A DNA stretch of 46,896 nt, taken from the NCBI GenBank assembly GCA_023247235.1, contig JAHFGW010000004.1, positions 1 through 46,896 on the forward strand, given 5' to 3'. Of the stretch, positions 35,210 through 46,896 are shown piece by piece (the stretch's first letter is position 1; the number at the start of each line of letters is the position of its first letter). Below the pieces are notes generated by a model. It was not told the DNA's origin. It made no database searches and saw nothing but the letters and a program-made list of their open reading frames with translations. A program made the translations under genes and the position numbers. This DNA comes from Candidatus Omnitrophota bacterium. GTDB taxonomy: Bacteria > Omnitrophota > Gorgyraeia > Aquiviventales > Aquiviventaceae.

Positions 35210-37105
35210 TTACGGCGTGTTGGAAGGTTCTTGGGACTGCCGGTATTCCGCCCCCATCTTGAAGCGCACTTCGGTCGCCGGCGAGCCATCCGGGAATGAG
35301 GGGAACGGCTGCGCCTGCTGCAGGGCATCCTGCGCGGCTTTCACGAACGTCTGGCCCTGGGGGCTGGTGATCATCGGCTCGCCGACCAATTGCCCGTCAT
35401 GGCTGAGGACGAACGAAATGACGACCGAGCCGTCTCCCAGCGACGCGAAGCGAAACTGCTCCGCCAAGTGCCGCTCCAGACGCCGGCGCAACCGCTGCCG
35501 GTACGCGTCGGAGACCGGCTCGCGCAACGCGACCACCGCCTTCTCGTCGCCTGTCTGCGCAATCGGCCCGGGCTCCGCGATCGTGACGTCATGCGAGCCA
35601 TCCGGTAGGACGATCTGCGGCGTCAGGAAGACGACCAGCTCGGTCTTGTCTCGCTTATCAATCGTGCCGCGAAACGGCAAGCCCACGAAGGGCAGGTCGC
35701 CCAGCAGCGGCAGCCGCTTGTTGGTGAGCGCCGTCGTCCCCTCAATCAAGCCGCCGATGATGACCGTGGACCCGCTCTTCACCAGGACGGTCGTCTCCGC
35801 CTCGGTGGAGGTGACGATCGGGATGCGGTTGTCCTTGAACTCCTTGACCTCGGCGGAGCTGACTTCGGGCCTGACCTTGAGCTGCACAAATCCATCCCGC
35901 TTGATTTGCGGCGTCACATAGAGCTTGGTGCCGACATCCACGAATTCGATTTCCTGCGCGGTGACCGTCGAGCCGGTCGCCGGCACGGTCGTGGTGGTGG
36001 TGACGAACGCCTCGCGCTTGCCGACCAGGATCTTCGCCTCTTGGTTGTTGGAGACCATGATGCGCGGGCTGGACAGCGTGTCGGTCTTGGTCACGCTCTT
36101 GAGGGCCTCGATGACGAGCTTGGTGCTGGAGCCGGGCGTCAGGAGCTTGACGCCCAATCCGCTGGCCGTCCCCGCCACCACGTCACCGCTGACGGTGTCG
36201 AAGCTGCCTGCGGCTGCGGCGTCAGCGCCTGCGAACACTCGCGCCCAGTCCACGCCGAGATCCATCTCGTCCGTCAAGGTGACCTTGATGATTTTTGCCT
36301 CGATCAGGACTTCGCCGTCCGGCGTGTCGAACGCCCGCACGAGCCGGTCGATCTTCACCAAGACCTCATCAAGATCCGTAATGACGGCTGTGTTCGTCCG
36401 CTTGTCGACGGTGACCGTGCCGATGGGCGTCAGGAGCTCCTGCACCTTTTCCTTAAGCTGCTCGGCGTCCGCGTAATCGAGCCGGTAGATTCGGTTATGC
36501 GTCGGGCGGTCCAGCTCAATGAGCAACCCCTGCATTTCCTTCAAGCGCACCGGCACGTCGTTGAGGATCAGCGTGTTGGAGGCTTCGTCGACGACGACTT
36601 GGCCCACCGCGGACTTGAGCTGGTTCAAGGCGGTGGCCACCTGGACGGCCTTGCCGTACTTCAGCGAGGCGACCACGCGCTCCTTGCGCTCCTGGAACTT
36701 CTCCCCGAAGAGCAGCTCATAGTCGCGCGCGGCCATCACGGTCACGATGTCCCCGCGCCGCTCATAGGCGAGTTCGTTCGCATCGACGATGCGTTCAAAC
36801 GCTTCCCAGACGTCGACATCATTCACGAAGATGGTCACGCGGCCCGTCACATTGCGCCCGGCGACGAAGTTCAGCCCGCTGCGCTGCGAGAGCAGCTTGA
36901 GCACATCGAGGATATCCACGCCCTTCAAATCCAAGGAGAGGCGCTTGCCGGTCTCCATCGCCGCCGGCGGCGTGAGGGCGGGCGCCTCGGCCCGCGCCGC
37001 GATCGACACGCCCAGCAGCAGCCCCGCGATCCCCAGGACCATGCCCGTCCCCATGCGCCTGGCCATTCGCCCCCACCCCCTCCGCGTTGTTGGCGCCAGC
37101 CTCAT
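35210..37105 (-). CDS. gspD: Type II secretion secretin GspD with C-terminal TonB/TolA-C-like domain
   Basis: 631 aa. Forms the outer-membrane channel. A signal peptide (GMVLGIAGLLLGVSIAARA, ending near residue 39), an STN/N0 domain (LDLKGVDILDVLKLLSQRSG), N1-type domains with VASLKYGKAV and YRLDYADAEQLKEKVQELL, then the secretin core from VLIEAKIIKVTL through VLVKSGSTVIIGGLIEG, KRLPLLGDLPFVGLPFRG and ELVVFLTPQIV (ends near 499). After a linker, residues 532-622 match a TonB/TolA C-terminal fold: YRQRLRRRLERHL, VVISFVLSHDGQLVGEPMI, FVKAAQDALQQAQPFPSFPD and EVRFKM. This replaces the usual S-domain. ATG at 37105 overlaps the upstream stop as ATGA. Confidence 0.92.
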   Translation of the reverse strand: MRLAPTTRRGWGRMARRMGTGMVLGIAGLLLGVSIAARAEAPALTPPAAMETGKRLSLDLKGVDILDVLKLLSQRSGLNFVAGRNVTGRVTIFVNDVDVWEAFERIVDANELAYERRGDIVTVMAARDYELLFGEKFQERKERVVASLKYGKAVQVATALNQLKSAVGQVVVDEASNTLILNDVPVRLKEMQGLLIELDRPTHNRIYRLDYADAEQLKEKVQELLTPIGTVTVDKRTNTAVITDLDEVLVKIDRLVRAFDTPDGEVLIEAKIIKVTLTDEMDLGVDWARVFAGADAAAAGSFDTVSGDVVAGTASGLGVKLLTPGSSTKLVIEALKSVTKTDTLSSPRIMVSNNQEAKILVGKREAFVTTTTTVPATGSTVTAQEIEFVDVGTKLYVTPQIKRDGFVQLKVRPEVSSAEVKEFKDNRIPIVTSTEAETTVLVKSGSTVIIGGLIEGTTALTNKRLPLLGDLPFVGLPFRGTIDKRDKTELVVFLTPQIVLPDGSHDVTIAEPGPIAQTGDEKAVVALREPVSDAYRQRLRRRLERHLAEQFRFASLGDGSVVISFVLSHDGQLVGEPMITSPQGQTFVKAAQDALQQAQPFPSFPDGSPATEVRFKMGAEYRQSQEPSNTP

Positions 37106-37710
37106 AACGTCAGCTCAATCGGTTCTCCTGCCAAGTTCAGAATCACGCGCGTCTCGCGAATTTCCTGCACCACCGCCCCCTCGACGACGGTTTGTCCCGT
37201 CGTCAAGAAGTAGGTCTTTTGCGTCTGCGTGTCTTCGATGATGGCCTGGGGCGTGTCCCCGGCCACGATGCCCAACAGGTTCAGCCGGGTGGCGAGCTGG
37301 CGCGCCAATCCGCTGGGCGCTTGCGCGGCTTTGCCGCCGGCGCCGTCGGAGTCCACACCGGTCGGCTCGACAAACAGCGGCCGGGCGCTTGCCGCGGCCA
37401 GCGACGGCAGCGGCAACGGTTGCGGCGCGGGCTCACGCGGCGCCTGAGCCTCGGACTCCGGCGGCAGCGCCCGAAGCGACGCGGGCCGCACCAGGTGATA
37501 GGCCAATGCGGCAAGCTCCACGGCGATCAGCACCGCCAGCACGCCTGCGGCCCATTGTGGCCAGCGCCCAATCGCCTCGCGCGGCGTCTGCAGTCCACGT
37601 CGCCCCAGCCGCGGCGGAAGGGTCGCGGCCGCTTGGCCTGCGGTCGCCGGGACGGGCTCGCGCGGCTTGGCGCGAAGCAACCTCAACAAGCGTTCTTCAG
37701 GCGTGGGCAC
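37102..37710 (-). CDS. gspC: GspC-like (or GspB-like) inner-membrane T2SS protein
   Basis: 202 aa. Cytoplasmic start, one membrane helix (WAAGVLAVLIAVELAALAYHLV), a Pro/Ala-rich periplasmic linker, and a C-terminal domain LNLLGIVAGDTPQAIIEDTQ followed by TYFLTTGQTVVEGAVVQEI and RVILNLAGEPIELTL, resembling the HR domain of GspC that contacts the secretin N0 domain. Because it directly follows an exeA-like gene, GspB (ExeB), which has the same layout, is the alternative. GTG at 37710 overlaps exeA by 14 bases; the frame upstream is the complement of exeA. Confidence 0.7.
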   Translation of the reverse strand: MPTPEERLLRLLRAKPREPVPATAGQAAATLPPRLGRRGLQTPREAIGRWPQWAAGVLAVLIAVELAALAYHLVRPASLRALPPESEAQAPREPAPQPLPLPSLAAASARPLFVEPTGVDSDGAGGKAAQAPSGLARQLATRLNLLGIVAGDTPQAIIEDTQTQKTYFLTTGQTVVEGAVVQEIRETRVILNLAGEPIELTL

Positions 37711-38536
37711 TTTCGCCGATCCACTGGGATTCAGCGCGCAGCAACTCCTCAATGAGATCCGCATCGACCACGGACCGTTCGTGCATGACGAGCGCCTCCA
37801 GGGCGTTGTGGCAGACCATCGAAATCTTGCGCGGGTAACCCTGGGTGCACCGATAAATCGCCTGGATGGCGTCCGGGGCAAAGAGCGTCTGGCCGATCGG
37901 CCACCCGGCGGATTCCAGGCGAAACTGGATCAGCTCGCCGGTTTCCCGCTCATCGAGCGGGTTGATGATGTACTTCATCGCCACGCGGTCCATGAAGTTC
38001 CTGATCCGTTGGATGCGTCCGAGCAATTCCATTTGGCCGAAGATGACGACCTGCAGGAGCTTGAACTCATTGGTCTCGTAGTTGAGCAGCACGCGGAGAT
38101 TCTCCAGGAGGCTCATCGACAGCTTTTGCCCCTCGTCGATCAACAGCACGGTCGTCCGTCCCTCGGTCACGCCGGTCTGAAACAGGTGGTGCTCGATCGC
38201 TTCTCGGCAATCGAGGGTGGATTTAAACGCGGGCCGGACGCCGAACATCCGCGTCAAGTGGAGGAGGAACTGGTATTCGGACTCGAAGGTGGGATCCAAC
38301 AGGATGTGGAAGCTGAACCCTTCTTCCTGCGGGAAATTGGCCAGGAGTGTGCGCGCCAGCGTCGTCTTGCCCGTGCCCACGTCGCCGAGCATCAGGCACA
38401 ACCCGCGTTTGAGCCGAATGGCGATTTCGAGCCGGGTCAAGGCCTGCAGATGAGAGCTGGAGCGAAAGAAGAAGCTCGGATCGGGGCTCGTCGAGAACGG
38501 CTCTTGGCTCAACCCCAGCACCGCGTAGTAACTCAT
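37697..38536 (-). CDS. ExeA/GspA-like AAA ATPase
   Basis: 279 aa. AAA/ORC-type ATPase: MSYYAVLGLSQEPFSTSPDP start typical of ExeA, Walker A GDVGTGKTT (51-59), Walker B TVLLIDEGQKLS, and a lid region with YPRKISMVCHNALEAL. ExeA with ExeB helps the secretin pass and assemble through peptidoglycan in Aeromonas. Here the C-terminal membrane and peptidoglycan-binding parts are absent, leaving only the ATPase. ATG at 38536 overlaps the merR-like stop (ATGA). Confidence 0.82.
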   Translation of the reverse strand: MSYYAVLGLSQEPFSTSPDPSFFFRSSSHLQALTRLEIAIRLKRGLCLMLGDVGTGKTTLARTLLANFPQEEGFSFHILLDPTFESEYQFLLHLTRMFGVRPAFKSTLDCREAIEHHLFQTGVTEGRTTVLLIDEGQKLSMSLLENLRVLLNYETNEFKLLQVVIFGQMELLGRIQRIRNFMDRVAMKYIINPLDERETGELIQFRLESAGWPIGQTLFAPDAIQAIYRCTQGYPRKISMVCHNALEALVMHERSVVDADLIEELLRAESQWIGESAHA

Positions 38537-38787
38537 GCGGGCGTCTCGTGCAGCCGCTGCGAGATTTCCGAGAGGCTCTTCGCCTCTTTGCGCCAGAGAC
38601 GGATTTGCGAAAGCCGCTCCACGGTGTCTTGATTGAAAAACCGGAAGCGCGTGGCGGGACTGCGGCCGGCCTCTTCGATAAGGCCGAGTTTGAGGTAGTA
38701 CTTCAAGGTGTGGACGGAGTGCCCGCTGAGCCTCGATAAGTCCTTCAGAAGAAGGATGTTATTCGTATCTTGACTCGGTCGGGTCAT
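38533..38787 (-). CDS. Small MerR-type DNA-binding protein in the T2SS locus
   Basis: 84 aa. A MerR-like winged helix: LLLKDLSRLSGHSVHTLKYY, LGLIEEAGRSPATRFRFFNQ, DTVERLSQIRLWRKEAKSL. It lacks the long dimerisation helix and sensor region of classical MerR proteins. It is the first gene of the merR-exeA-gspC-gspD block, preceded by a promoter-like sequence and a perfect dyad (38796-38812), so local regulation of secretin assembly genes is a fair inference. ATG at 38787 chosen; GTG at 38793 is possible. Confidence 0.78.
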   Translation of the reverse strand: MTRPSQDTNNILLLKDLSRLSGHSVHTLKYYLKLGLIEEAGRSPATRFRFFNQDTVERLSQIRLWRKEAKSLSEISQRLHETPA

Positions 38788-38795
38788 CTCCACTC

Positions 38796-38872: not shown

Positions 38873-39403
38873 TTACCGATGGAGCACGAGTTGCTCCATC
38901 ACCAAGTGGGCGCGCAAGAGGCCTTGCCGGCCGGGGGCGCTGGAGATGTGCAACCGCTTAATTTCGATCAGTCGCGGCATACTAAACAGCGCATCAAGGA
39001 AGGCGAGCAGCTGGTCCTGCGGCGCGCTGAGATCAATCTCGAGTCCCACGCGCGTCACTTCCCCGCGTCGCAGGGCGGGCTTGGGCCGGAGATCGACTTG
39101 CACATCCGCGCGGCGAGCCAAGGCCTCGAGTTCTCCGAGGAAGGTCGCAGGATCGATGTCGGGGGCGTCTTCCGAGACGTACGGCTGGATCAGCTGATAC
39201 TCGCGGTCGATCGCCTGCCGCTTGGCGAAAAGCTCGTTCAGCCTGTCCACTTTCGCGGACTGGGATTCTACCTGCTGGCTCAGCTCTTTCGCGCGGCCCC
39301 AGAGTGGCTCGAGCAATTGCGCGATCACGAACCACACGCCTACCGCCAGGACCGCAAAGAGGAACAGGCGGCGCTCCCGAGGATTAATCTTAACGAGCGG
39401 CAT
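38873..39403 (-). CDS. gspM: GspM/PilO-like inner-membrane T2SS protein
   Basis: 176 aa bitopic protein: basic start (INPRERRLF), one membrane helix (LFAVLAVGVWFVIAQLL, about 15-31), a helical region (RAKELSQQVESQSAKVDRLN) and a ferredoxin-like C-terminal domain (VTRVGLEIDLSAPQDQLLAF). Pairs with GspL in the assembly platform. Sequence is diverged; the call rests on topology and position right after gspL, which it overlaps by 14 bases. Confidence 0.75.
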   Translation of the reverse strand: MPLVKINPRERRLFLFAVLAVGVWFVIAQLLEPLWGRAKELSQQVESQSAKVDRLNELFAKRQAIDREYQLIQPYVSEDAPDIDPATFLGELEALARRADVQVDLRPKPALRRGEVTRVGLEIDLSAPQDQLLAFLDALFSMPRLIEIKRLHISSAPGRQGLLRAHLVMEQLVLHR

Positions 39404-40796
39404 GGCTTTGCTGGACCACCAGCTCGAAGTCGGCCCGCTCTCCGCTGGGCGTCGAGCGGCGCGTCGAGTGCTGCAACCGCACTTCCGAGACGCCGTCGAG
39501 CTGCTCCAAGACCTTCAGGTAGGCGAGCACCTGTTCCGTAGAGGGGGCGCGCCCGCGAAGCAACAGTTGCCGCTTGCTTTGCTCGAAGGTCAGCGCCTCC
39601 AGCGCGACAGGAGTCGGCGTGAGCCGAAGGATGCCGGCCAGCAGGCTCGCCAGCTGATGCCGCTGCCAGACCACGCCGCTGACAAGCTCGACCGCGCTCT
39701 GCTCCGCCCTGACTTGGCGCGTCACCGGCTCAAGCGTGTCGATCACCTCGTCGAAATGCGCGGCCAGCTGCCGCTGTTGCGCCACCTGCAGGGCCACGAG
39801 GCCAGCGCCCAAACTCAGGGCGCCAAGCGCCAGCGAGCCGATGAGCACGGCATCCCGCAGGCGCTGTCGCTGGCGCGCCTGCACGACCACCTCGGGCGGC
39901 GTCAGGTTCAATAGCTGCCCGGCGTCGGCGCAGGCCGTGCCGCAGACCACGACCGGGGACACCGGCACCGCGCCAATCAGCGGCCGCAAGAAGACGCCCT
40001 GGATCGCAGGCACGTGCGCGACGGGCAGCCCGAAGCGGCGCTCAATCGATTCCGCCCATGGGGCTAGCGGTTCCATGCCGGTCAGAAGGAACGAGCGAAC
40101 CTCGGTACCGGGCAGCTCCTTGCGCACCGTCGACAAGCTGCGGTCTAATTCCTGCGCCAATGGATCGAACCCCTCGGCCCCTTCGACGACCTCCTCCTTG
40201 GCTCCAGACCCCACGCTGCGGCTGAAGAGCACGCGCTCCCCGGACACCAGCACCAGGTCGACCCGTTCCTCATCGCGGTTGACAATCAGCACCGGCTCCA
40301 CGACCTGCGCCGGCCGCGTCTGAGCCATGTACCAGCCGAGCACCCCCCACGAACTGACCGTGAGCCGTTGGACCACCAGCCCGGCGCTCTTCAGCGGGCC
40401 GACCACGCGATCGATCGCGTCGCGACGGCAGGCGACGACGGCGACCGTGCTGAGGCCTTCCCGTCGCTCCAGCACCTGGTGGTCCACGACGGCCTGCTCC
40501 TTCGGATACGGGAGCTGGGCCTTGCCGTAGAGCTCCACCATCTTCGCCAAGTCCTCCGGCTGCGCCGCGGGAAACTTAATGAGGCGCGAGATCACTTGGT
40601 CGCGCGGGATCACGCCCATCGCCGGGGCGCCCTTGAGCCCCAGCTTCTTCACCAGACGCTCAAGCGTCCGGCCGATCGGCGTCTCCATGCCCAGCGGCTC
40701 GACCTGCAACGTGCGCACGCGCAGCCGCCCGGGCGTCCCTTCGGCCACCGCCAGGCGCAGGCTGCTATGTGTCCATTCGACAACGACCCGTCGCAT
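39390..40796 (-). CDS. gspL: GspL-like protein (PilM-type actin fold plus PilN-type region)
   Basis: 468 aa. Residues ~1-300 look like a PilM/GspL actin-like cytoplasmic domain (VIPRDQVISRLIKFPAAQPE, VEPVLIVNRDEERVDLVLV), followed by a membrane helix (LIGSLALGALSLGAGLVAL, about 318-336), a coiled segment and a ferredoxin-like periplasmic domain (VALEALTFEQSKRQLLLRG). In T2SS this links the GspE ATPase to the platform. ATG at 40796. An 81-bp gap with a hairpin repeat separates it from gspK. Confidence 0.8.
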   Translation of the reverse strand: MRRVVVEWTHSSLRLAVAEGTPGRLRVRTLQVEPLGMETPIGRTLERLVKKLGLKGAPAMGVIPRDQVISRLIKFPAAQPEDLAKMVELYGKAQLPYPKEQAVVDHQVLERREGLSTVAVVACRRDAIDRVVGPLKSAGLVVQRLTVSSWGVLGWYMAQTRPAQVVEPVLIVNRDEERVDLVLVSGERVLFSRSVGSGAKEEVVEGAEGFDPLAQELDRSLSTVRKELPGTEVRSFLLTGMEPLAPWAESIERRFGLPVAHVPAIQGVFLRPLIGAVPVSPVVVCGTACADAGQLLNLTPPEVVVQARQRQRLRDAVLIGSLALGALSLGAGLVALQVAQQRQLAAHFDEVIDTLEPVTRQVRAEQSAVELVSGVVWQRHQLASLLAGILRLTPTPVALEALTFEQSKRQLLLRGRAPSTEQVLAYLKVLEQLDGVSEVRLQHSTRRSTPSGERADFELVVQQSHAAR

Positions 40797-40877: not shown

Positions 40878-41930
40878 TCAGCTTTCCCGCCACGCGAGAA
40901 TTTTCGGAGGTTCGGTCTCGTTCGCGGAGCGCTGCACCAGCGCTTCCACGCGCGCTTCGATCGGCGGGTTGAGCAGCCGTCCCGTCGCGTTCACCGTGAA
41001 GAGGTGCGAGGTGACGCCAAACTGATTTTGAAGCAGGGTTTGCTCGTCATCGTCCAACACGATGCCGCAGCTCTCCTGGGCCGTCGGCACAATCTCCGCC
41101 TCTGTCTTGAAGATCGTGCCGCTTGCCCGGCAGGCCCGCAGGCTCTCCGCGGTCCCTTCACGCATCCCCATCGCCGCGAGGACCTCCGGGCTGACCGTGT
41201 TGATGTTCAGCTTGTCGGGGACGCTCAGCGGCGCCACGCTGGCCAGCCGATAGAGGAGCGCAAACGGCTCCGCCTCAAGACCTGGGATCGCCAACAGCTC
41301 TTCGGGAGCGACGAGCGGGCCGTTCTTGGCCGCATACGGCGGCTGGGCTCCTTCATCCACCTCCAAGCCTTCTGCGCCGAAGGGGTCGGTGTTGGCATCC
41401 AGATAATCGGCGATCCGCGGGGCCGCCTCCGGCGCAGTCACCAAGCGGCCCAGGGTCTTGTACCACAAGTTCCCCGCATCCGACTGGACTCTGTTCAGCG
41501 GCAGTTTGCGCTCTTCATCCACCATGCGAATCTCAATCCGCGCCCCCGGGCCTGAGGGACCCGGCTGCTCGGGCAGATCGACGGCCCAGACCGCGGGGTC
41601 CTCGCTGTCGGGAAACTGCGCCCAGTCATCGCCCAGCCAATCATACTGGCCTCCACCCTCTTCAGACGTCTTGGCGTCATCGGCCAATCGCTGGAGCGCC
41701 AGGTACACCCCGCTGCGCGCCAGGACCCTCGCCTGCTCGCGTCCGACCCGGTACTTCGTCAGGCGCACTTCCGTGGAGAGGAACCGGCCGATCGCCACCG
41801 CCAGCACACTGAGGATCGTCACAAGCCATAGCGTCACGATCAGCAAGGACCCGGTATCGGGGACCCGTCCATTTTTTCTGTCCGAGAGCCAATGGAAAAA
41901 AGAGACGCGTCCCCGATCAAGGCGATTCAT
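40878..41930 (-). CDS. gspK: Minor pseudopilin GspK, leader encoded by a repeat
   Basis: 350 aa. Tip subunit of the pseudopilus. Prepilin cleavage site G/SLLIVTLWLVTILSVLAV with no Glu5, as expected for GspK, then a large domain with DEERKLPLNRV, ANTDPFGAEG and NINTVSPEVLAAMG matching GspK's helical insert. ATG at 41930 overlaps the gspJ stop (ATGA). The leader is 27 residues, and residues 5-25 are encoded by the hairpin repeat at 41856-41917; no start codon lies between repeat and cleavage site. Confidence 0.88.
   Translation of the reverse strand: MNRLDRGRVSFFHWLSDRKNGRVPDTGSLLIVTLWLVTILSVLAVAIGRFLSTEVRLTKYRVGREQARVLARSGVYLALQRLADDAKTSEEGGGQYDWLGDDWAQFPDSEDPAVWAVDLPEQPGPSGPGARIEIRMVDEERKLPLNRVQSDAGNLWYKTLGRLVTAPEAAPRIADYLDANTDPFGAEGLEVDEGAQPPYAAKNGPLVAPEELLAIPGLEAEPFALLYRLASVAPLSVPDKLNINTVSPEVLAAMGMREGTAESLRACRASGTIFKTEAEIVPTAQESCGIVLDDDEQTLLQNQFGVTSHLFTVNATGRLLNPPIEARVEALVQRSANETEPPKILAWRES
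41856..41917. repeat. REP-like hairpin within the GspK leader coding region
   Basis: ATCGGGGAC (41856-41864) and GTCCCCGAT (41909-41917) are perfect 9-bp arms; an inner TTTTTTC/GAAAAAA stem is also possible. Same family as 40808-40863 by its edges. Confidence 0.8.
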
Positions 41931-42622
41931 TCGGCGGCCTTGGGCAGCGTGCCCGTCGGAATCCACACGAGTTCCCGAAATGGCCGGCCCGGCTCAAACC
42001 GGCCTCCCAGTGCGACCAAGCGAGGAATCTCCTTCGTGCTGGTCCAGGTGTCGCGCCATTGCAGCGCCCCGGCCGTCCCGGAGGCGGCATACGCATACTC
42101 GACGGCGAGCTCGGCACAGCCGGCCGCCAAGAGCACCGGCGTACCCGCCTGTCGCGCCATGACGTCCCCGATCGCCTGGCCCGTCCGCCACAGGCCCTGC
42201 ACGCCGTCCTGCTCGGCGCAGCGATAGGTGACGTACTCCACCGCTCCGGGCCTGGCCGCCGTCGTGGGACGCACCGTCACCCACCGCAGCTCCGTGTGGC
42301 CAAAATACGGCGCCACGACCGCTTCCTCGCGCGGGTCATACGCGATCGCGTTGACAAGCTCCCGGCGGAACTGATCCAAGGCGAAGTGCCGCTCGCGCAG
42401 CGTCTCCGTCTCCCCGGTGACCCGCCGCCAGACGCGCACCCCCCCCTGCAGATGCGTCCCCAGGCCGACAAACAGGACGGACATGATGGTCGCGGCGATG
42501 ATCAGCTCGATGAATGTAAAACCCTGAGAGCTCGTGGCTCGTGGCTCGTGGTTCGTGGCCTTTCCTCGAACCTCCAGCCTCGAGCCTCGAGCCTGGCTGG
42601 CACTCTGCCCCGAACCTACCAT
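41927..42622 (-). CDS. gspJ: Minor pseudopilin GspJ, leader encoded by a heptanucleotide array
   Basis: 231 aa. Prepilin site G/FTFIELIIAATIMSVLFVGL with Glu5. The C-terminal domain (ETLRERHFALDQFRRELVNA, ELRWVTVRPTT, LAVEYAYAASG) is typical of GspJ, which joins GspI and GspK at the pseudopilus tip. ATG at 42622 overlaps the gspI stop by 7 bases. The leader is 34 residues, unusually long; residues about 11-31 (ARGSRLEVRGKATNHEPRAT) come from the array at 42530-42591. Confidence 0.87.
   Translation of the reverse strand: MVGSGQSASQARGSRLEVRGKATNHEPRATSSQGFTFIELIIAATIMSVLFVGLGTHLQGGVRVWRRVTGETETLRERHFALDQFRRELVNAIAYDPREEAVVAPYFGHTELRWVTVRPTTAARPGAVEYVTYRCAEQDGVQGLWRTGQAIGDVMARQAGTPVLLAAGCAELAVEYAYAASGTAGALQWRDTWTSTKEIPRLVALGGRFEPGRPFRELVWIPTGTLPKAAE
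42530..42591. repeat. Bipartite heptanucleotide array in the GspJ leader
   Basis: Plus strand: GCTCGTG three times and GTTCGTG (42530-42557), six-base spacer, CCTCGAA, CCTCCAG, CCTCGAG, CCTCGAG (42564-42591). Four units on each side, 7-bp period. Opposite orientation to the copy in gspG. Confidence 0.92.
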
Positions 42623-43071
42623 GAATCCGGCACCCACTCTGAGGGCCAGAGCGCCCACAGCCGGACTTGCGGGCCGGCGCCCTCCACCGGATGGACGGCG
42701 AAATTGACTTGGCTCACCGGCACCCCCCCAGCAGCTCCCTGCGGCGCGGCCGTGATCTGCCAGCCGTACGCTTCATGTGGGGCCTCGAACGTCCCCTCGC
42801 CAGACCGTGCCGTCGGCTGGGAGGCCGCGCGCGCCGCCTCCACTTCCGCCAGCAGCGACCGGCTGAGCGAGAGCAGCACATCCGTGGCTTCCATCGTCTT
42901 CAACGCCCGCAGGTGCCCCGAAAAGCTGCGGCTGATAAACACCAGGCCCAGGCCGATCACCGCCGCGGAGAGGACCGCTTCAACGAGCAGCAGGCCTCGG
43001 CCTACCCGCCGGGCCGCGGCGGGCCTACGATCCTGACCCGTCGGTAAGGGTGACTCGGCTTGTGGTCGCAT
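42616..43071 (-). CDS. gspI: Minor pseudopilin GspI
   Basis: 151 aa. Prepilin site RRVGRG/LLLVEAVLSAAVIGLGLVF with Glu5, then a helix (LRALKTMEATDVLLSLSRSL) and a small C-terminal domain ending ALWPSEW. Initiates the pseudopilus tip with GspJ/K. ATG at 43071 overlaps gspH by 47 bases and gives a 26-residue leader; no closer start is seen. Confidence 0.82.
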   Translation of the reverse strand: MRPQAESPLPTGQDRRPAAARRVGRGLLLVEAVLSAAVIGLGLVFISRSFSGHLRALKTMEATDVLLSLSRSLLAEVEAARAASQPTARSGEGTFEAPHEAYGWQITAAPQGAAGGVPVSQVNFAVHPVEGAGPQVRLWALWPSEWVPDSW

Positions 43072-43567
43072 GCACGGTCACAGTATAGGCACGCCCGCGA
43101 TGGCTCACCACCAGCGTGGCCGCTTCGCTCGTGCCATCAGGAAAAAAGGTGACGCGCTCCACCGGCACCTCGTCCCGGGTCAGCGCGACGTCGATGGCCT
43201 CAGACGCCACGCGCCTGTGGGTGCCCCGCTCCTCAAGCGGCAGCGGTTCTCCCTCGATCGGGTCGATCTCCAACCGCGCCTGCCTGGCATCTGGGTCCCA
43301 GACCCAGGCGATCGGCTCGCCTTGGGTCACCGCGCGCTCGTGCGCATACCGGAAGAGTTGCGCCAAGGCGAAGGCGGTCTGCTCAGTCTGAAGCCGCGCG
43401 GCGGTCCCGGTGAAGTTGGGCACCGCCGCCACAAGCAACATGGCCAGCACGACGGTGACCAGCACCACCTCGACGAGGGTAAACCCAGGGTGGGCGGGCT
43501 TAGTCTTGCCAATTGCCGATGTCGTCGTTGCCCACTCTGCCGTCGGGGCCCAGCGAATAGAGCTCAT
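43025..43567 (-). CDS. gspH: Minor pseudopilin GspH (start uncertain)
   Basis: About 180 aa. Prepilin site PAHPG/FTLVEVVLVTVVLAMLLV with Glu5, then FALAQLFRYAHERAVTQGEP and LARLEIDP-type strands of the GspH/FimT domain. No ATG, GTG or TTG lies between the gspG stop and the cleavage site. The nearest in-frame start is ATG at 43567, overlapping gspG by 68 bases and giving a 28-residue leader; ATT near 43510 would give a 10-residue leader, the usual length. Confidence 0.8.
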   Translation of the reverse strand: MSSIRWAPTAEWATTTSAIGKTKPAHPGFTLVEVVLVTVVLAMLLVAAVPNFTGTAARLQTEQTAFALAQLFRYAHERAVTQGEPIAWVWDPDARQARLEIDPIEGEPLPLEERGTHRRVASEAIDVALTRDEVPVERVTFFPDGTSEAATLVVSHRGRAYTVTVHATTSRVTLTDGSGS

Positions 43568-43991
43568 AGTCCTGCTGGTGCTCCGACTGCATGCTATAGA
43601 TGTAGGAGCGGTGCCAGGGATCTTCCGGCAAGCCCTTTTTGAGATAGGGGCCATTCCATTTCCCTTCCTCCACGTCCGCAGGCGGCTCGCGCCGTACCAG
43701 CTCCTCCAACCCATCGGGATAGCGGCCCATGTCGAGCTCATACAGATCCAGGGCCAACCCGATCGCGGCGATGTCCGCCCGCGCCCGCGCGGTCTTCGCT
43801 TGCTCGGTGCGTCCCGTCAGCCGCGGCACGACCATCGCGGCCAGCACCCCGATAATGATGATGACCAACATGAGCTCAATCAGCGTGAAAGCACGCTCGA
43901 GGTTCGAGGCTCGAGGCTCGAGGGAAAGACCCGAACCCTGGTCGCCACGAGCCATGAACCACGAACCACGAGCCCGTTTTGCGCGACTCAT
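43500..43991 (-). CDS. gspG: Major pseudopilin GspG, leader encoded by a heptanucleotide array
   Basis: 163 aa. Main pseudopilus subunit. Cleavage site LERA/FTLIELMLVIIIIGVLAAMV; alanine replaces the usual glycine at -1. Mature part shows the GspG marks RADIAAIGLALDLYELDMGR, YPDGLEELV, GPYLKKGLPEDPWHRSYIY and SLGPDGRVGNDDIGNW with the calcium-site residues. ATG at 43991 overlaps the gspF stop (ATGA), so the 34-residue leader is likely real; residues 6-33 derive from the array at 43895-43974. Confidence 0.93.
   Translation of the reverse strand: MSRAKRARGSWFMARGDQGSGLSLEPRASNLERAFTLIELMLVIIIIGVLAAMVVPRLTGRTEQAKTARARADIAAIGLALDLYELDMGRYPDGLEELVRREPPADVEEGKWNGPYLKKGLPEDPWHRSYIYSMQSEHQQDYELYSLGPDGRVGNDDIGNWQD
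43895..43974. repeat. Bipartite heptanucleotide array in the GspG leader
   Basis: Plus strand: GCTCGAG, GTTCGAG, GCTCGAG, GCTCGAG (43895-43922), a 24-base spacer, ACGAGCC, ATGAACC, ACGAACC, ACGAGCC (43947-43974). The GCTCG and CGAGC cores of the two blocks can pair. Reverse orientation relative to the gspJ copy. Confidence 0.92.
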
Positions 43992-45196
43992 TGGACGACC
44001 AGCCCAATCTGGAACACGGGCAGTAACATGGCCAGGACGATGAACATGACGACGCCTCCCACGCCTACGAGCAGAATCGGTTCCACGATGGCGGTGAGCC
44101 CCTTGATCGCCCGGTCGACTTCGCGCTCATAGGTCCCGGCGACTTTCAGCAGCGCCGCGTCGACCGTCCCGGACTCCTCGCCGACGGTCACCATGTTGCT
44201 GACGAAGGGCGGAAATTCCCCGCTATTGGCCAAGGCGACCGCGATGCTCGCCCCGTCGCGAACCGACTCTTGGACCTGGACGACCGCGCGCCGCAAGACC
44301 GAATTCGAGACGCTCTGCGCGACCACATCTAACGCCTGCAAGACCGGCACGCCCTGGCCGACCATGACGCCGAGGTTCCGCATGAAGCGCGACGTCTCCA
44401 GCTTGCGCGCCAGCGTGCCCACGCCGGGCAGCACCAGCACGAGCCGATCCACCACGGCGCGACCCGCAGCACTGTTGCGCCACCGGCCGAACCCCAGCGC
44501 GAACAGCAGCAGGCCGCCGAGCAGCGCCCACCACCACCGGGTCAACACCCGGCTGACCGCCAGCAGCATGCGCGTCGGCAGCGGCAGCAGCTGGCCGGAC
44601 TCAATGAAGACTTGCGACAGCGTGGGGATCACGTAGGCCAGCAGAAAGACGGTCATCGCCACCGCGACCGCGAGCACAAAGAGCGGATACGCCGAGGCGG
44701 TCAGCAGCCGGCTCCTCAGCTCGGCGTCGTTCTCGCCCAGCTCCGCCAGGCGGGCCAGCGCCTGCTCCAGGCCTCCGCCCACCTCCCCGGCCCTCACCAT
44801 ATTCATGTAGAGCGGCGAGAACACGGTGGGATGATCGGCGAGGGTGTCGCTGAGCGCGCGGCCGTCGCGCACGCCGGCCGTCAGGCCGTCGATGACTCGG
44901 CGCAGCGCTGGATGGTCCGTTTGCTTAGCGAGGAGGGTGAGTGCATTCAGCAGCGGCAGGCCGCCGCCCAGCAAGTCCGCGAGCTGCCGCGTCGTTTGCG
45001 CGAGTTGGCGCCCGGAGATGCGGCGACGGGCGAAGGTCCTCCGGCCGCCGCGCGCGCCGGTGACCTCCATGATGCTCAGCGGAAAGACGCCTTGACTGCC
45101 CAGGCGGTTGATGGCGGCGGCCTCGTTCTCCGCCTCGATGGTGCCCTCGAGGATCTTGAGCGCGCTGTCGCGCGCTCGGTAGGCGTACTGGGCCAT
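43988..45196 (-). CDS. gspF: T2SS inner-membrane platform protein GspF
   Basis: 402 aa, standard. Visible: MAQYAYRARDSALKILEGTI start, two repeated helical domains (ISGRQLAQTTRQLADLLGGG then LPLLNAL; MRNLGVMVGQGVPVLQALDV), three membrane segments, and VTVGEESGTVDAALLKVAGT plus the closing IVEPILLVGVGGVVMFIVLA. It anchors the GspE ATPase. ATG at 45196 chosen because the conserved MxxYxYRARD begins there. Confidence 0.95.
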   Translation of the reverse strand: MAQYAYRARDSALKILEGTIEAENEAAAINRLGSQGVFPLSIMEVTGARGGRRTFARRRISGRQLAQTTRQLADLLGGGLPLLNALTLLAKQTDHPALRRVIDGLTAGVRDGRALSDTLADHPTVFSPLYMNMVRAGEVGGGLEQALARLAELGENDAELRSRLLTASAYPLFVLAVAVAMTVFLLAYVIPTLSQVFIESGQLLPLPTRMLLAVSRVLTRWWWALLGGLLLFALGFGRWRNSAAGRAVVDRLVLVLPGVGTLARKLETSRFMRNLGVMVGQGVPVLQALDVVAQSVSNSVLRRAVVQVQESVRDGASIAVALANSGEFPPFVSNMVTVGEESGTVDAALLKVAGTYEREVDRAIKGLTAIVEPILLVGVGGVVMFIVLAMLLPVFQIGLVVQ

Positions 45197-45204
45197 CGGT
45201 GCTG

Positions 45205-45213
45205 AGTATAACA
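45205..45213 (-). promoter_or_regulatory. Possible extended -10 promoter before gspF
   Basis: Minus strand TGTTATACT (TGnTATAAT type) lies in the short gspE-gspF gap, 8 bases before the gspF ATG. No good -35 is present, so an internal promoter is only a possibility; it would yield a near-leaderless gspF message. Confidence 0.3.
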
Positions 45214-45219
45214 CACCGA

Positions 45220-46896
45220 CTACGTGACGCGCAGCACCTCTTCCGGCGTGGTGAGCCCCTCCGCGATCTTGCGAAATCCGTCCTGGCGCAGGGTTTGCAT
45301 CGGCGTGTCGCGCTGCGCCGCCTGGAGGATGTCGCTGGAGGAGGCGCGCCGCAAGATCTGTTGCTTGACGCCTTCCGTGATGAGCATGAACTCGTGAATC
45401 GCAGTGCGTCCCTTAAACCCGGTGCCTTTGCAGGCCAGGCAGCCCCGGCCATACCGCAGCGCGCTCGGCGCGGGGCCGACAAGATTGAACGGGGCCAGCA
45501 CCCGCGCGTGCACCGGCCGCTCCTCTTGGCAGTCGGAACAGATGAGGCGGACGAGCCGCTGCGCCACGAAGCACAGGACGGAGGAGGACAACAGGTAGGG
45601 CTCGATCCCCATGTCCAGCAGGCGCGTCACCCCCCCGGCGGCGTCGTTGGTGTGCAGCGTCGAGAAGACCAGATGGCCCGTCAAGGCGCTGCGGATCGTG
45701 ATCTCGGCCGTTTCCGGATCGCGCACCTCGCCGACCATCATGATGTCCGGGTCATGGCGCAGCATGGAGCGCAGGCCCTGGGCGAAAGAGAAGCCGATGC
45801 GCGGATGCACCTGCAGCTGCACGATGCCGTCCAGCTGATACTCAATGGGGTCCTCGATGGTCAGGATTTTGCGATTCGGGGCGTTGAGCTTCGAGAGGCA
45901 CGCGTACAGGGTCGTCGTCTTGCCGGAGCCGGTGGGCCCGGTGACAAAAATGATGCCATGCGGCCGCTCGATGAGCTCCGAGAGAATCTTCAACTGCGCG
46001 TCCCCCAGCCCGAGCTCCTTGAGGCTGAAGAGCATGCCGGAGGACAGCAAGCGCACGTTCACGCCCTCGCCGTAGCTGGTCGGCAGCACCGAGATGCGCA
46101 GGTCGAGCTCCTTGCGCTCCAGCCGCACCTTGATCCGCCCGTCCTGCGGCAGCCGCCGCTCGGCGATGTCGAGCTTCGCCATGACCTTGATGCGCGAGAC
46201 GATCGCCGGGTGCAGCTTGACCAGATCCGGCGGCACCGGCACGTCATAGAGGATGCCGTCAATGCGCTGCCGCACGCGCAGGATCTGTTCAAACGGCTCC
46301 AGATGAATGTCGGTCGCCCGCTCGCGCACCGCCGAGAGGATGAGCTGATTGACGAAGGAGATGACGGAGGCATCCTGGGCCTTGGCCATCAGGTCCTCGG
46401 CCCCGGCCACGGGAGCCGAGGTGCGCACGCCCGCATCAAGCAACTGCTCGACCGCCGAGGCGCCGATGCCGTAGTGGCGCTCGATCGCGCGCTTAATCTC
46501 CTGCTCCGTCGAGAGCACGGGATCGACTTCGCAATCCAGCAGCAGGCGCAGCTCATCCAGCGTCTGCACGTCAAACGGATCCGCGATGGCGACTTTCAAG
46601 ACGTCCTGCTCGAAGGCCAGGGGGATGAGCCGGTAGTGGCCGGCGAACTTCGGGGGGACTTTAGCGAGCGCCTCCGGGCTGATCTGCACCTCGGCGAGGC
46701 GCACATAGGGCATGCCGGCCTGCTCGGCGAGCACTTCCAGGAGCTGCTCGTTGGTAATGAGGCCCTGGCGCGTGAGCACACTGCCGAGCAGCTCGCCGGT
46801 GCGCTTTTGCTCATCCCGCGCCTGGTCCAAATCGTCAGCCGAGATGAGCCCGCGCTCCAGCAGCAGCTCACCGAGGATCTGACGGCGAGTTCTGGG
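45220..46896 (-). CDS. gspE: T2SS assembly ATPase GspE (N-terminus beyond window)
   Basis: Incomplete: the frame is open to the window edge and reads RRQILGELLLERGLISADDL, part of the GspE/PilB N-terminal domain, so the start lies upstream. Within: N1E-type domain (EQAGMPYVRLAEVQISPEAL), Walker A VTGPTGSGKTTTLYACL, Walker B region DPDIMMVGEVRDPETAEI, the HLVFSTLHTNDAAGGVTRL block and a four-cysteine zinc site (CSDC...CLAC). The hexameric cytoplasmic ATPase drives pseudopilus assembly. GspE rather than PilB because GspF-M follow directly. Confidence 0.94.
   Translation of the reverse strand, partial: PRTRRQILGELLLERGLISADDLDQARDEQKRTGELLGSVLTRQGLITNEQLLEVLAEQAGMPYVRLAEVQISPEALAKVPPKFAGHYRLIPLAFEQDVLKVAIADPFDVQTLDELRLLLDCEVDPVLSTEQEIKRAIERHYGIGASAVEQLLDAGVRTSAPVAGAEDLMAKAQDASVISFVNQLILSAVRERATDIHLEPFEQILRVRQRIDGILYDVPVPPDLVKLHPAIVSRIKVMAKLDIAERRLPQDGRIKVRLERKELDLRISVLPTSYGEGVNVRLLSSGMLFSLKELGLGDAQLKILSELIERPHGIIFVTGPTGSGKTTTLYACLSKLNAPNRKILTIEDPIEYQLDGIVQLQVHPRIGFSFAQGLRSMLRHDPDIMMVGEVRDPETAEITIRSALTGHLVFSTLHTNDAAGGVTRLLDMGIEPYLLSSSVLCFVAQRLVRLICSDCQEERPVHARVLAPFNLVGPAPSALRYGRGCLACKGTGFKGRTAIHEFMLITEGVKQQILRRASSSDILQAAQRDTPMQTLRQDGFRKIAEGLTTPEEVLRVT

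Follow-up and report, generated by a model that had tools for sequence, protein, structure and literature searches.

The type II secretion (T2SS) secretin GspD encoded in the window, a 46,896-nucleotide stretch of Candidatus Omnitrophota DNA, ends in a predicted folded domain of the TonB/TolA C-terminal type. Such a tail is conserved in most related GspD proteins, and a second family of Omnitrophota secretins, that of Tad-type systems, carries a similar domain at the same end.

Domain organization of GspD

The gspD gene is a single open frame without an internal stop. The gene and the parts of its product are as follows.

35210-37105, reverse strand: gspD, type II secretion secretin, 631 aa; open reading frame with Pfam matches to Secretin, Secretin_N (twice), STN and TonB_2, and fold matches to PulD, InvG and GspD
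36320-36943, reverse strand: periplasmic N0-N1-N2 domains, about residues 55-262; STN, two Secretin_N matches and model, boundaries approximate
35609-36106, reverse strand: secretin core, residues 334-499; PF00263
35510-35608, reverse strand: linker, residues 500-532, disordered at 507-528 (pLDDT below 50)
35240-35512, reverse strand: C-terminal TonB/TolA-type domain, residues 532-622 (about 533-622); Pfam TonB_2 above cut-off at 533-616, AlphaFold, Foldseek

The N-terminus is signal-like and is followed by the N0-N2 domains, for which Pfam gave a weak STN/N0 match and two stretches of Secretin_N. In fold searches the full-length model matched PulD, InvG, GspD and ExeD. A secretin core with N domains, encoded within a T2SS operon, identifies the protein as the T2SS secretin GspD; this assignment rests on the operon, because the match to the NCBIfam equivalog TIGR02517 (245 bits) does not reach the cut-off of 351. 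The match to the PilQ model (246 bits) is likewise below its cut-off of 284. The 1.34-Mb host genome encodes four further secretins, none of which has the tail domain.

An earlier, sequence-only reading had placed the end of the secretin core near residue 499, which is where the Pfam Secretin match stops, and had proposed a separate TonB_2/TolA-C-pattern domain fused behind it. The interval it gave for that domain, 35240-35512, corresponds exactly to residues 532-622, and all of the motifs it quoted are found in the translation. The fusion itself is borne out by profile searches and by the predicted TonB/TolA-type fold. When the whole of GspD was scanned, TonB_2 matched residues 533-616 at 26.3 bits (cut-off 22); when residues 499-631 were scanned alone, both TonB_2 (29.4 bits against 22) and TonB_C (25.7 against 24.6) passed. 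The NCBIfam TonB-family model TIGR01352 was matched slightly below its cut-off (24.1 bits against 27.1). The same reading had also named TolA_C as a family to be compared. At 17.4 bits the tail lies far under the TolA equivalog cut-off of 59.45, and membership in TolA was rejected. Scanned singly, the C-termini of homologous proteins matched TonB_C in 27 of 28 cases and TonB_2 in 23 of 28 (E up to 0.01). A profile built from the tails retrieved TonB chains from the PDB, with the C-terminal domain (CTD) of Helicobacter pylori TonB first (E = 1.5e-6).

Structure prediction for the 133-residue tail gave a helix (35-55), two strands (61-70 and 75-82), a second helix (87-100) and a final strand (114-123), with pLDDT of 93-98 across most of the domain. 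The best Foldseek matches were HasB, H. pylori TonB, TolA and further TonB C-terminal domains; only the first of these, HasB, fell under E = 0.001, and we therefore read the fold and sequence evidence jointly. Taken together, the profile matches and the predicted alpha-beta-beta-alpha-beta fold indicate that, at the level of the domain, the tail is a member of the TonB/TolA C-terminal domain superfamily. In the full-length prediction it forms a separate folded alpha/beta domain, as had been anticipated, and the low pLDDT at residues 507-528, between secretin and tail, makes it look like a tethered, independent unit. Little was found by way of a GspD-specific conserved surface on the tail beyond the mostly conserved Pro577.

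Secretins of this kind often end in an S-domain, and S-domains occupy the same end of the protein. Published S-domains are short, however, and disordered until the pilotin binds (PMC9239104), whereas the GspD tail forms a folded alpha/beta domain homologous to that of TonB. It follows a disordered linker, lies in one frame with the secretin and recurs in dozens of genomes. It is thus extremely improbable that the tail is an ordinary S-domain, that its similarity to TonB is due to chance or that the fusion is an assembly artefact. The S-domain was ruled out by profile, predicted fold and conservation, S-domains being compared here by their published description. A chance motif was rejected because curated cut-offs are passed and 27 of the 28 homologues match, and a frame or contig artefact because a single open frame recurs across those genomes.

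The T2SS operon

The gspD gene is the last of an operon that runs E, F, G, H, probable I and J, K, L, M, a MerR-type gene, a GspA-like ATPase, C and D. The genes upstream of gspD are listed below.

45220-46830, reverse strand: gspE; T2SSE, MshEN
43988-45214, reverse strand: gspF; T2SSF
43500-43991, reverse strand: gspG; T2SSG
43025-43741, reverse strand: gspH; GspH, N_methyl at residue 86, true start probably later
42616-43071, reverse strand: probable gspI; named by position only, without a Pfam match
41927-42658, reverse strand: pseudopilin, probably gspJ; N_methyl, named by position
40878-41966, reverse strand: gspK; T2SSK_1st
39390-40796, reverse strand: gspL-like, with PilM and PilN parts in a single protein; PilM_2, PilN
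38873-39403, reverse strand: gspM-like; T2SSM_b, PilO
38533-38793, reverse strand: small MerR-type DNA-binding protein; MerR_1
37697-38536, reverse strand: GspA-like AAA ATPase, 279 aa; AAA_22, resembles TIGR03015 but below its cut-off
37102-37881, reverse strand: gspC; T2SSC, 32.9 bits

Since the listed gspC frame overlaps gspA, its true start is probably nearer 37700. A small MerR-type protein is also encoded near gspD in 39 of the 68 loci with the fusion.

Other secretins are anchored to the cell wall by SPOR (Legionella LspD), AMIN (PilQ), TsaP or GspA/GspB (PMC9239104). In the operon described here the GspA-like ATPase has an AAA match only, with no peptidoglycan-binding part recognisable by Pfam, and no gspB gene was recognised. 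These observations would be compatible with a ring of tail domains that anchors the pore in peptidoglycan. We nevertheless consider such an anchor quite unlikely: in published work on the Ton system peptidoglycan was contacted by ExbD and not by the TonB C-terminal domain (PMC10771500), and the tail matched no peptidoglycan-binding family.

Conservation of the tail among Omnitrophota

The survey of secretins that the sequence-only reading had called for revealed a conserved class rather than a single occurrence, the tail domain being present in 68 of 80 related GspD proteins. Nearly all of the relatives with names are Candidatus Omnitrophota. Two with the title Planctomycetales (L043 and L069) branch among the Omnitrophota proteins of the GspD tree, and their label is probably wrong.

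Conservation was analysed on a tree built from the secretin cores alone, with the tail left out. The members without a tail are scattered among the fused ones; 8 state changes are needed, at least 7 of them forced by well-supported branches, a pattern that fits an old fusion followed by several losses. One non-fused member (L090) extends to the edge of its contig and is possibly truncated. At the loci whose GspD lacks the tail, no other ORF carrying the domain was found within the flanks examined. The tail is not always needed, since several related T2SS operons have a GspD without it.

Counts were made in a sample of 68 genomes from the phylum, of which 67 have a completeness of 90% or more and a contamination of 5% or less. 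One or more secretin-length frames with the domain were found in 31; nearly all of these frames were checked by sequence, and 27 of the 31 genomes are among the 39 belonging to the class of the host. A survey of 384 genomes, which considered best matches only, was left out of the counts. A PilQ-like secretin (L161) and two GspD-like secretins from other classes (L158 and L159) match the tail profile but fall under the Pfam cut-offs.

A similar tail on Tad-type secretins

The second secretin family consists of frames of about 520-580 aa with T2SS-T3SS_pil_N, Secretin and TonB_C matches. We assign them to the Tad type (RcpA/CpaC-type) because two of their loci hold RcpC/CpaB together with a fusion of ParA/MinD-like and T2SSE-type ATPase parts; pilin-like small proteins are encoded in one of the two. 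Omnitrophota secretins of this type that end in TonB_C are L149-L155, L160, L163, L186-L199 and L202. In two Tad-type secretins TonB_C scored 60.8 and 62.4 bits, at the same end of the protein as the GspD tail. At both Tad loci, L206:3385-9167 and L207:4906-10564, a gene for a lipoprotein-like SurA/PpiC-type PPIase precedes RcpC/CpaB, and the ParA/MinD-like part and the T2SSE-type ATPase are joined in one protein encoded after the secretin.

A tree of the domain alone (88 columns, weakly resolved) unites 24 Tad-type tails with an SH-aLRT of 95 and, in a different branch, most GspD tails with an SH-aLRT of 94, apart from most stand-alone TonBs. The domain tree favours the view that the fusion probably happened at least twice, separately in GspD and in the Tad secretins. 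The GspD tail of L145:459-2429 groups with stand-alone TonBs, possibly through a later domain swap.

The gain of the same tail by two unrelated pores suggests a requirement that secretins share, and not one set by a cargo. A generic peptide-binding fold, in a T2SS that must recognise what it exports, could in principle serve to bind secreted proteins or parts of the pseudopilus. We regard such a recruiting role as very unlikely: in known secretins the C-terminus is located outside the channel, and Tad-pilus secretins, which pass a pilus and not soluble cargo, bear a similar tail.

Stand-alone TonB proteins and a possible origin of the tail

Among stand-alone Omnitrophota proteins, the GspD tail is most similar to TonBs, many of which have no ExbB/ExbD gene next to them. 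At 14 of 34 such loci the upstream gene is a member of one and the same family, and the one member that was scanned is a TonB-dependent receptor. The host genome encodes an ExbB-ExbD-TonB set and a single TonB-dependent receptor. In one genome gspL-M-C-D, cobO and tonB follow one another in this order (L209:3436-6712), which indicates that a TonB gene can adjoin gspD and might have been the source of the tail.

Most of these observations would also suit a tail that acts as TonB does, binding TonB-box-like receptor peptides or Ton/Tol partners and so connecting the secretion pore with the Ton motor or an uptake receptor. However, the tonB linkage was seen in that one genome and was absent from the flanks of the 80 gspD loci, and the YP motif of TonB is mostly missing from the GspD tails, though it is kept in the Tad tails. 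We consider this explanation unlikely. Coupling of GspD to a Ton/Tol motor, which the sequence-only reading had raised beside replacement of the pilotin, is less supported. At its own N-terminus the domain in GspD lacks a transmembrane helix that could bind the motor, and GspD therefore cannot pass on force as TonB does; as a whole protein it does not have the N-terminal transmembrane helix, spacer and CTD of a TonB energy transducer.

Outside the phylum, no secretin fusion was found in 120 Elusimicrobiota genomes; none of the frames with the domain was longer than 386 aa there, and all 10 loci examined lie in ExbB-ExbD-TonB operons. With tblastn, relatives of GspD were found in 890 records of a plasmid collection and relatives of the Tad secretin in 867, but in no record did the match extend over 80% of the query; the test is a weak one, since at such identity it would fail to detect a tail by itself. 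Related domains also occur on other Omnitrophota proteins. At L162:710-2980 two adjacent genes code for the same C-terminal domain; the product of one is lipoprotein-like, and that of the other resembles an outer-membrane barrel and matches no Pfam family. Two frames of 1055 and 2681 aa in one genome (L156:850-4014 and L157:407-8449) end in a related domain.

A possible role at the pilotin site

Pilotins bind T2SS secretins at the C-terminus, in the S-domain (PMC9239104), and pilotin binding to the Tad secretin RcpA is also at its C-terminus (PMC10499894). The earlier suggestion that pilotin genes might be missing agrees with what we found: neither of the known T2SS pilotin families, PulS/OutS or AspS (covered by the models PF16549 and PF09691), was detected in any of 25 genomes with an E. 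coli control positive, the models being proteobacterial, so that unrelated lipoproteins would escape them.

By comparison with known secretins, the C-terminus of GspD would lie at the outer face of the ring, in the periplasm beneath the outer membrane, and an assembled pore would present one tail domain per subunit at its periplasmic rim. TonB and TolA C-terminal domains bind their targets through beta-strand addition (PMC12204202). Each tail domain might in the same manner dock a partner peptide by its edge strand, and this docking might help the secretin to get to, or remain at, the outer membrane, as a pilotin lipoprotein does elsewhere from the same end. We therefore put forward, at a little short of an even chance, that the GspD tail is a built-in docking or assembly module at the pilotin site, carried on a flexible tether. 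Replacement of the pilotin fits because the tail occupies the pilotin-binding end, because a similar and probably independent fusion occurred in Tad secretins, and because the known T2SS pilotin families were not found. The fuller proposal of self-piloting, in which a TonB-type CTD joined at least twice independently to GspD and RcpA-type secretins, replaces the lipoprotein pilotin and binds by beta-strand addition, is possible but doubtful.

Comparison with known systems

The Omnitrophota GspD resembles GspD/PulD/OutD with their S-domain and pilotin (PulS/OutS, AspS/ExeS) in its core, its N0 and N1/N2-type domains, its T2SS operon and the presence of an extra C-terminal segment. It differs in the folded TonB/TolA-type end, in that only two Secretin_N stretches were detected and in that no known pilotin family was found. 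The tail is like the CTDs of TonB, HasB and TolA in its Pfam matches (TonB_2 and TonB_C) and its helix-strand-strand-helix-strand fold, but it sits on an outer-membrane pore, without an inner-membrane anchor or a proline-rich periplasmic spacer. A TonB-like part that serves a T2SS secretin is also known from the assembly factor GspB/ExeB/OutB, ExeB having been reported as 39% similar to TonB (PMC4098917). GspB, however, is a separate inner-membrane protein that binds at the N0 end, whereas the Omnitrophota domain lies within GspD, at the opposite end. Legionella LspD is likewise a T2SS secretin with an added periplasmic binding domain (PMC9239104), but its SPOR domain is N-terminal and is known for peptidoglycan binding. 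In the Tad system, the C-terminus of RcpA that is bound by the pilotin TadD corresponds to the end that carries TonB_C in the Omnitrophota Tad secretins (PMC10499894); TonB is unmentioned in the main text of that paper.

Neither secretin nor TonB occurs in the main text of a survey of Omnitrophota (PMC10066038), and no description of a secretin-TonB_C fusion was found in the open-licence part of PubMed Central, although an uncommented listing in a protein-architecture database may exist. The component families are known; their combination, on two secretin families, was absent from the open-access literature searched.

How secretins without a recognised pilotin are inserted in the outer membrane is a question for many bacterial phyla, and the tail offers a testable candidate. 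The Omnitrophota are a phylum of mostly uncultured bacteria, and the Tad system of its mostly ultra-small members has been linked to suspected predation or parasitism (PMC10066038). If the docking module proposed here is real, these bacteria would use a TonB-type domain as a tethered module on an outer-membrane machine, whereas such domains usually belong to motor-driven transducers.
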